DNA of 64,000 bases. It comes from Oscillospiraceae bacterium. Lineage in GTDB: Bacteria > Bacillota > Clostridia > Oscillospirales > Oscillospiraceae. Below, one piece after another: positions 45,739 through 58,553 of the stretch. Location of the stretch: NCBI GenBank assembly GCA_009778485.1, contig WRJQ01000001.1:21116-85115 (forward strand), given 5' to 3'. The position numbers and the translations under genes were made by a program. Positions within the stretch are counted from its first letter, which is position 1, and every line of letters begins with the position of its first letter. The notes under the pieces were generated by a model. That model was not told the origin of the DNA. It worked only from the letters and a program-made list of their open reading frames with translations, and searched no databases.

Positions 45739-45929
45739 GTGTCTGTTCAGGTACCCACTACGTAACTATTCAGTGCCACCTTAGTTCGGCCGTTACATCA
45801 CGTTCCTTTCGCTCGAATGCGCATCCATGCGCATACTCGCGCGCTCCGGCATCCATGCCTCCGCTATTCGGAACGTGCCTCACCGAGGCACAGAATAGTT
45901 GCCCCACTACCTCCAGGCGTTACATTTCA
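45739..45929. mobile_element. Nested MITE-like intergenic element (family member A)
   Basis: Shares 23-bp end, 43-bp core and 27-bp arm with the 56758-57011 element (opposite orientation); inner palindromic unit 45762-45902 flanked by CCCACTAC direct repeats. Confidence 0.75.
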
Positions 45930-56283: not shown

Positions 56284-56757
56284 ATGAGTAAGGAAGCAAA
56301 GTTCAAAATGAGCCAGGAGCGCCTCGACGAGTTAAAAGAGGAGCTCCACTATCTGCAGACGGTGCGCGAGAAAGAAGTCGCGCAGCAAATCAAGGAAGCC
56401 CGCTCTTTCGGCGACCTGACCGAAAACAGCGAGTATGACGAGGCCAAGACAGAGCAGGGCAAGCTCTACTCGAAAATCGCCGAGATAAAGAATCTTGTCG
56501 AGAATGCGGAGATAGTCTACGCCTCGGAAAAGACGGACCGTGTCGGTATCGGAAGCAAAGTCAAAGTCCGCGACATGGAACTCGGCAAGGTCGATACATA
56601 CGAAATCGTAGGCTCGCAGGAAGCCGACCCGGCTGCGCTTCGCGTCTCCGACGACTCGCCTTTCGGAAAAGCCCTGATGGACAAAGTGAAGGGGGAAGTC
56701 ATTTCAATCGACGTCCCCGCAGGCGTCCTGCAGTTTGAAATACTGAAAATAGATTAA
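56284..56757 (+). CDS. greA: Transcription elongation factor GreA
   Basis: ARSFGDLTENSEYDEAKTEQG, SPFGKALMDKVKGE. Confidence 0.96.
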   Translation: MSKEAKFKMSQERLDELKEELHYLQTVREKEVAQQIKEARSFGDLTENSEYDEAKTEQGKLYSKIAEIKNLVENAEIVYASEKTDRVGIGSKVKVRDMELGKVDTYEIVGSQEADPAALRVSDDSPFGKALMDKVKGEVISIDVPAGVLQFEILKID

Positions 56758-57011
56758 CTGTTCAGGTACCCCGTCCAGGCGCTATATTTCATTTCGTAAG
56801 CGAAGCTCGTCGCTGCGGATTGCGCTAAGTCTCGCATTACAGCAAGCTGTAACGCTCGCTCGCTTCATCGCAGCTCCTCTTCGAATCGAAGCAGGCTTCG
56901 ATTCGATACATATGGAAATTATGCGGAGCGCGCGAGTATGCGCATGGATGCGCATTCGAGCGAAAGAAATGAAATGTAACGCCTGGAGGTAGTGGGTACC
57001 TGAACAGACAC
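56758..57011. mobile_element. 254-bp MITE-like element (family member B) with direct-repeat flanks
   Basis: Imperfect TIRs CTGTTCAGGTACCC...TCCAGGCG...CATTTC at both ends; flanked by perfect 12-bp AAAATAGATTAA at 56746-56757 and 57012-57023; internal hairpins TTACAGC/GCTGTAA and CGAATCGAAGC/GCTTCGATTCG. Confidence 0.85.
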
Positions 57012-57035
57012 AAAATAGATTAAGGAATTAACGCG

Positions 57036-58553
57036 ATGACACAAGATGAAAATACTACTCCCGCCCAGCCCTGCGAGGATGAACAGTCCCTGTCAGAGAT
57101 ACTTCAGATCCGCAGGGATAAACTCAGCAAGCTCGCAGACGAAGGTCGTGACCCCTTCGCGGTGACAAAGTACCGGCGGACGGCGTACTCAGCCGATATA
57201 TCAGAAGGGTTCGACACCCTGGAAAACAGCGTCGTTTCAGTCGCGGGGCGCGTCATGGCCAAGCGCGGCATGGGAAAGGCCATATTTGTCGACATAGCCG
57301 ACGCAAAGGGCACGATCCAGCTCTACTACCGCCTCAACGACGCCGGCGAACAGACGTTTGAGGACGTCCGGAAGCTCGATATCGGCGACATCATCGGAGC
57401 GACAGGGTATGTATTCAAAACCAGGACAGGAGAAATCTCCGTCCACTGCGATACGGCGGCCCTGCTTGCCAAGTCCCTGCGCCCGCTGCCGGAAAAGTAC
57501 CACGGACTTACAGATAAAGAGCTCAAGTACCGCCAGAGGTATGTAGACCTCATCATGAACGCGCAGACGCGCAGGACCTTTGAAATCAGGACTGCCTTTA
57601 TCAAGCATGTGAGGGCCTTCCTGGATGCGCGCGGATATATGGAAGTCGACACGCCTGTGCTCAACACGATATCGGGCGGGGCGACCGCCAGGCCGTTCAT
57701 CACGCGGCACAACACGCTCGGGATCGATATGTATATGCGGATCGCGACGGAGCTCCATCTGAAAAGGCTCATCGTCGGCGGCATAGAACGCGTATACGAA
57801 ATCGGTCGGATATTCCGCAACGAGGGCATGGACACGAAGCACAACCCCGAATTCACGACGGTAGAACTCTATGAAGCGTATACCGACTACAACGGCATGA
57901 TGCAGCTTTTCGAGGAACTGCTCTCCTCCGCGGCCATGAACATACTCGGAGAATACTCGCTGACATGGCAGGGCAGCGAAATAAACCTCGCGCCGGGCTG
58001 GAAGCGCATGACGATGGCGGACGCGGTGCTGGAGCATACAGGCGTCGATTTCATGTCCCTGGGCAGCGCGGAAGAAGCAGTGCGCGCCGCCGGCAGCCTT
58101 TGCGTAAAGGCGCGCGAGGGCGCGGAGGCTACCTGGGGCGGGCTGCTGTACGAGTGCTTCGACGCCTGCGTCGAGTCAAAACTCATTCAGCCTGTTTTCA
58201 TTACGGACTACCCTGTAGAGGTATCCCCCCTGGCAAAGAAAATAACTTCGGACCCGAGGCTGACAGAACGTTTCGAGCTGTTTATCTGCGGAAACGAGAT
58301 GGGCAACGCTTTCAGCGAACTGAACGACCCGATCGACCAGATGGAACGCTTCAAGCGCCAGGCGGAACTGCGAAACTCCGGCGACGATGAAGCCGGCATG
58401 ATGGATGAAGACTATGTCAACGCCCTGGAATACGGCCTGCCGCCGACAGGCGGGCTGGGGATAGGGCTCGACCGCTGCGTCATGATGCTAACTGACAACT
58501 CGTCGATCAGGGATGTAATCCTCTTCCCGACAATGAAGCCGCTTGGAGTATGA
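57036..58553 (+). CDS. lysS: Lysyl-tRNA synthetase (class II)
   Basis: IGRIFRNEGMDTKHNPEFTTVELYEAY; GLPPTGGLGIGLDR. Confidence 0.97.
   Translation: MTQDENTTPAQPCEDEQSLSEILQIRRDKLSKLADEGRDPFAVTKYRRTAYSADISEGFDTLENSVVSVAGRVMAKRGMGKAIFVDIADAKGTIQLYYRLNDAGEQTFEDVRKLDIGDIIGATGYVFKTRTGEISVHCDTAALLAKSLRPLPEKYHGLTDKELKYRQRYVDLIMNAQTRRTFEIRTAFIKHVRAFLDARGYMEVDTPVLNTISGGATARPFITRHNTLGIDMYMRIATELHLKRLIVGGIERVYEIGRIFRNEGMDTKHNPEFTTVELYEAYTDYNGMMQLFEELLSSAAMNILGEYSLTWQGSEINLAPGWKRMTMADAVLEHTGVDFMSLGSAEEAVRAAGSLCVKAREGAEATWGGLLYECFDACVESKLIQPVFITDYPVEVSPLAKKITSDPRLTERFELFICGNEMGNAFSELNDPIDQMERFKRQAELRNSGDDEAGMMDEDYVNALEYGLPPTGGLGIGLDRCVMMLTDNSSIRDVILFPTMKPLGV

Follow-up and report, generated by a model that had tools for sequence, protein, structure and literature searches.

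The element at the end of greA in the studied stretch of DNA (64,000 nucleotides from an Oscillospiraceae gut bacterium; hereafter, the window) is most probably a non-autonomous MITE that belongs to the ISBst12 group within the IS66 family, a reading to which we attach a probability of roughly 0.87. Judging by its terminal sequences and an 8-bp target duplication, a TnpC-type DDE transposase would have moved it. The draft genome of the host comprises 1.69 Mb in 82 contigs and is 64.5% complete. The element is of a known kind; the pattern of its insertions, many of which lie at stop codons, is unusual and worth testing.

The element between greA and lysS

The MITE copy occupies positions 56754-57011 of the window on the plus strand (258 bp). 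Its left end, of type A, reads TTAA-CTGTTCAGGTACCCCGTCCAGGCGC, and its right end, of type B, reads GTGT-CTGTTCAGGTACCCACTACCTCCAGGCG in reverse complement. A perfect 12-bp direct repeat, AAAATAGATTAA, is present at 56746-56757 and identically at 57012-57023, as reported in a preliminary description of this region. That description placed the repeats directly against both ends of a 254-bp MITE and regarded them as a 12-bp target duplication. The MITE was confirmed. However, of the perfect 14-bp inverted repeats CTGTTCAGGTACCC (56758-56771, plus strand, and 56994-57007, minus strand), the right one stops at 57007, and the 4 bp ACAC separate it from the second direct repeat. A comparison of about 115 end copies assigns four further bases on each side to the element (TTAA on the left in this copy, ACAC on the right), which gives the boundaries above. 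The target duplication is 8 bp long, AAAATAGA, with its left copy at 56746-56753 in the last codons of greA and its right copy at 57012-57019. The rest of the 12-bp repeat, 4 bp, comes from the tip of the element itself, TTAA (56754-56757, plus strand; family consensus GYAA), and the TTAA that follows the right copy is the sequence with which greA ended before the insertion displaced it. The exact agreement between the tip and the host TTAA is an unexplained coincidence and a point against this reading; the first base of the tip is usually G in the family.

Inside the terminal inverted repeats, we found a second inverted repeat of 22 bp (56774-56795, plus strand, with its partner at 56966-56987; 91%), a perfect 12-bp hairpin, TCGAATCGAAGC / GCTTCGATTCGA (56881-56906, plus strand), and a core, GCGGAGCGCGCGAGTATGCGCATGGATGCGCATTCGAGCGA (56923-56963, plus strand), that is common to other MITE families of the same genome and of congeners. 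The terminal inverted repeats and interior hairpins described earlier are thus present, and the folding of the MITE strand is far more stable than that of shuffled sequences (z = -10.2). The copy has no coding content and no transposase gene, and related copies are dispersed through the genome, in agreement with the earlier proposal of a non-autonomous family. As expected of a MITE, the element is short and multi-copy and has terminal inverted repeats and a target duplication, and the corresponding site is empty in the congeners that were readable there.

The insertion point is the penultimate codon of greA (AAAATAGA^TTAA). The greA gene (56284-56757, plus strand; 157 aa) has kept its C-terminus (..EILKID): the TAA of the element tip now terminates the gene, and the protein still ends in ILKID. 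The lysS gene (57036-57698, plus strand, where its reading frame continues) starts with an ATG 16 bp after the right duplication, and its ribosome-binding site, AAGGA, is kept. Empty relatives that already contain both repeats would have argued against an insertion, as the preliminary description pointed out. Those congeners in which the 3' end of greA is legible have a single-copy site (for example, AAGATAGATTAAGTGG) with lysS next to it and without a second greA tail.

Copies of the family and their position at gene ends

BLAST detected about 30 longer copies in the same genome at 87-100% identity. As many as 20 contig ends of this genome fall inside the MITE, showing that the element disrupts assemblies. 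The motif CTGTTCNGGTACC occurs at 144 sites when up to one mismatch is allowed, versus 16 for a reversed control pattern. The exact 13-mer has 96 occurrences in this genome and a single one among 100 other genomes of the same bacterial family, 99 of which have no exact match. A similar element was not found in plasmids, phages, Rfam, or viral contigs, and the exact end pattern had no match in genome_contigs. The 117 ends read in 560 kb are of two types: A is GYAA-CTGTTCAGGTACCCCGTCCAGGCGC, with the tips GCAA (6), GTAA (6), and ATAA (4), and B is GTGT-CTGTTCAGGTACCCACTACCTCCAGGCGC, with the tip GTGT (20). The length of the copies varies between about 258 bp and 28 bp, the shortest being palindromes (GTGTCTGTTCAGGTACCTGAACAGTTAC). 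Because their junctions differ, the short forms probably arose in situ by deletions from one short repeat to another (GGTACC, for example), which would leave palindromes of 28-48 bp. The 28-bp palindromes, the smallest forms of the family, consist of two tips only, joined at GGTACC (L118 11060, L117 4169, L137 2759, L106 2692, L133 1230, and L112 4682), and some of them have recognisable 8-bp duplications.

With mechanically called ORFs of at least 100 codons, a gene stop lies between 5 bp inside and 8 bp outside the outer tip in 34 of 79 non-genic copies, compared with 8.1% of random intergenic positions (p ~5e-17). The association holds at ORF cut-offs of 60, 150, and 200 codons, and in five cases the tip itself supplies the stop codon. 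The preference for stop codons or 3' ends suspected earlier is therefore real as a pattern. No fixed sequence motif beyond AT-richness was found at the insertion sites, and convergent gaps are enriched.

A congener (G011) contains about 40 copies of a 133-bp hairpin MITE with the tips GTAACTGTTCAG / GTAACTATTCACC and an interior unrelated to that of the window MITE. Among 30 copies examined, six have a perfect 8-bp duplication and four match at 7/8, which independently supports the IS66 reading. Gene stops adjoin 13 of its 25 non-genic copies; the background of 2% in this genome is biased low by short loci, and thus 8% was used. One copy (L094/L219) lies directly 3' of greA, in the greA-lysS gap, apparently as an insertion independent of that in the window.

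A further, truncated copy of the first family in the window has its end B at 45739-45761 (plus strand), where 7 bp separate it from the preceding stop codon of a 1213-codon ORF. Nested in this copy, with a perfect 8-bp duplication, CCCACTAC, is a member of a second MITE family of the IS66 type (GTAACTATTCAGTGCC...GAATAGTTGC, 45762-45901), so that in the region 45739-45925 an end B just past a stop codon is split by a MITE of family 2. Elsewhere in the genome, family 2 has the 8-bp duplication TATACAGC. The core containing CATGGATG (56923-56963; about 40 nt) is also found in other MITE families, whose stems and tips differ, in the same genome and in the congeners G003, G009, G013, and G014. In the window and at the loci L033-L051, L029, and L109, it caps hairpins whose stems and tips vary from one species or family of the genus to another; its exact pattern occurs in none of the other 294 genomes of an order-wide draw. 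In G009 and G014 (L031, L032, and L035), an apparent tRNA gene sequence lies directly beside sequence that resembles the MITE's left interior (GTCGTCGCGGACTTCGCTAAGTCTCGCC...).

The stop pattern may be due to selection alone, by which insertions elsewhere, in densely packed coding and regulatory DNA, were lost and those in the harmless spot just after a stop remained; this explanation is compatible with an IS66 MITE. Only about 10-14 copies lie inside predicted ORFs, divergent (promoter) gaps are depleted (7/62 versus 25%), and an IS66 copy lies near a gene start in one congener. In addition, old copies that have shrunk are no less biased (27/58) than the younger copies of greater length (7/21; the difference is not significant). 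On the other hand, a bias is evident even among the longer copies (p 0.001), and family 2 of the same genome, with none of 16 tips at stops, has no such bias. As random intergenic positions give 8%, most other intergenic DNA would need to be roughly as intolerant as coding DNA. On balance, we favour selection acting on AT-rich sites over targeting as a reasonably likely explanation. It is rather doubtful that true targeting of translation stop sites by IS66-type MITEs occurs in this genus, with transposition steered to within a few base pairs of stop codons. If they do, the DNA exposed where transcription and translation end might, for example, be the target, and a GTAA or ATAA tip, which can restore a stop codon, would make the insertion neutral by design.

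Target duplication and probable IS66 origin

The four bases beyond each CTGTTCAGG are conserved over all copies (GYAA on the left, ACAC on the right) and therefore belong to the element. The preliminary description had suggested that copies be collected to check the duplication length; in the 33 two-ended copies, the flank similarity is highest if these bases are assigned to the element and a duplication of 8 bp is assumed (mean 3.67/8; background ~2.1). Perfect 8-bp duplications are present in three copies (AAAATAGA in the window, GAACGATT, and ATAATTAA), and a further four match at 7/8. Many old copies have no clear direct repeats, an outcome that the preliminary description regarded as contrary to its reading, yet 7 of 33 match at 7/8 or better. 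The chance of such a match is ~0.0006 per copy, and the binomial probability for 7/33 is about 1e-16 to 2e-16. Some of the pairs from early pair-finding are spurious (L137 2503 and L123 18191, for example); these only weaken the statistic, which is therefore conservative.

A true 12-bp target duplication, with descent from a long-duplication family such as the IS4 type, would account for the perfect 12-bp repeat of the window copy. One old copy (L026/L109; L109 4764-4950, on the genome's own contig C18) even has a 16-bp flanking direct repeat, AATGCTTGGTGTAGAA, longer than the expected 8 bp. This explanation is very improbable and is already largely refuted by the 8-bp register of independent copies: the bases adjoining the tips are conserved and thus owned by the element, and other copies, like the nested family and the MITEs of the congener, have 8-bp duplications. 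IS4-type elements have duplications of ~10-13 bp, longer than 9 bp, and the independent copies show 8 bp.

The GTAA tips together with the 8-bp duplication indicate IS66. The tips GTAACTGTTCAG and the duplication length agree with insertion sequences of the IS66/ISBst12 group, and end A, GYAACTGTTCAGGTACC, has the IS66-like start GTAA, as in the IS66 tip GTAACTGTTCAGTTACC. A point against this assignment is GTGT at end B, where IS66-type tips usually have GTAA. In a congener (G006; WQWL01000088.1, Oscillospiraceae Emb289P1bin94), we found an intact IS66 element of 1895 bp (L143), whose 514-aa transposase contains PF03050 (E 2.2e-41) plus DUF6444. Its tips are GTAACTGTTCAGTTACC / GTAACTATTCAGTTAGG, with a perfect 8-bp duplication, CTTTTTCA. 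The first tip (GTAACTGTTCAG.TACC) is identical to end A of the MITE at 16 of 17 bases. Unlike the MITE, L143 carries a transposase, and the interiors do not match; thus, L143 is not the direct parent. A relative with 51% identity, an IS66 element in a Lachnospiraceae MAG, has the tips GTAACTRTTCAG and GTAACTRTTCAGAACCC and the duplication GTAAGATT, and a further congener IS66 (L230) has the tips GTTACTAGTCAC and a 7/8 duplication in the TSD scan. The scans failed at the congener IS66 genes L141, L145, L146, and L147; these loci have suffered truncation or decay, or their ends were not recognised.

A matching autonomous element, for which the preliminary description proposed a search, was not found in the incomplete genome of the host; the near-matching element is that of the congener. 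PF03050 was not detected in the host draft (64.5% complete) and is present in 7 of 19 congeners. A family-wide protein search gave no IS66 transposase match in the host genome, in a search that had no positive control (G006, the source of the query, is not shown to have been sampled). We nevertheless infer that an IS66 transposase moved the family.

The very short palindromic forms (20-28 bp) and the position directly 3' of stop codons recall palindromes of the REP/REPIN type, which would be moved by a Y1 (RAYT) transposase and kept at gene ends for an mRNA hairpin. Transposition by Y1 enzymes produces no target duplication, yet the 8-bp duplications here are clear, and the tips match those of a DDE element; this origin is still less probable than a 12-bp duplication. 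Least probable of all is that the stable fold between two co-oriented genes is a fixed, immobile structure that regulates or terminates transcription of the greA-lysS operon; this is already refuted by tens of dispersed copies and the single-copy empty sites in congeners, and the target duplications also argue against it.

Under the IS66 reading, a TnpC-type DDE transposase would recognise the tips GTAA-CTGTTCAGG and GTGT-CTGTTCAGG, make an 8-bp staggered cut, and insert the element, and gap repair would then duplicate the 8 bp. The insertion would have entered the penultimate greA codon, with the left tip bringing a new in-frame TAA and the duplication being laid down before lysS together with the lysS ribosome-binding site, so that both genes would have remained intact. 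Later deletions between short repeats may then have reduced many copies to the palindromes described above.

Known systems and significance

ISDge4 of Deinococcus (ISBst12 group, IS66 family) has been observed transposing; its tips are GTGACTACTCAGCA / GTAACTGCTCAGCA, and its repeat is 8 bp long (PMC12898284). Like the ends of the MITE, its tips GTAACTGCTCAGCA and GTGACTACTCAGCA are slightly unequal, and the duplication is also 8 bp; unlike the MITE, which is geneless and has unrelated inner sequences, ISDge4 is autonomous, with a 449-aa transposase (PMC12898284). MITEAba12 is likewise short and non-autonomous and is found in AT-rich targets, and its tips and the length of its duplication link it to an IS; it has other tips and 9-bp duplications, and the accessible part of that report mentions no association with stop codons (PMC6382973). 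The small repeats REP, ERIC, and RUP resemble the MITE in being high-copy, hairpin-forming, and mostly intergenic, whereas RUP and its relatives duplicate TA (IS630 type) and REPs duplicate nothing, compared with 8 bp here (PMC2229807).

IS66-type MITEs have hardly been described, and we found no description of them in the open literature. As the present family supplies tips, a duplication length, and a congener IS66 element with matching tips, its mobilisation is directly testable. The association with stop codons was seen in two species, with MITEs of unrelated interiors that both hit the greA-lysS gap. This finding raises the question of whether small bacterial repeats come to lie at gene ends through targeting or through selection.
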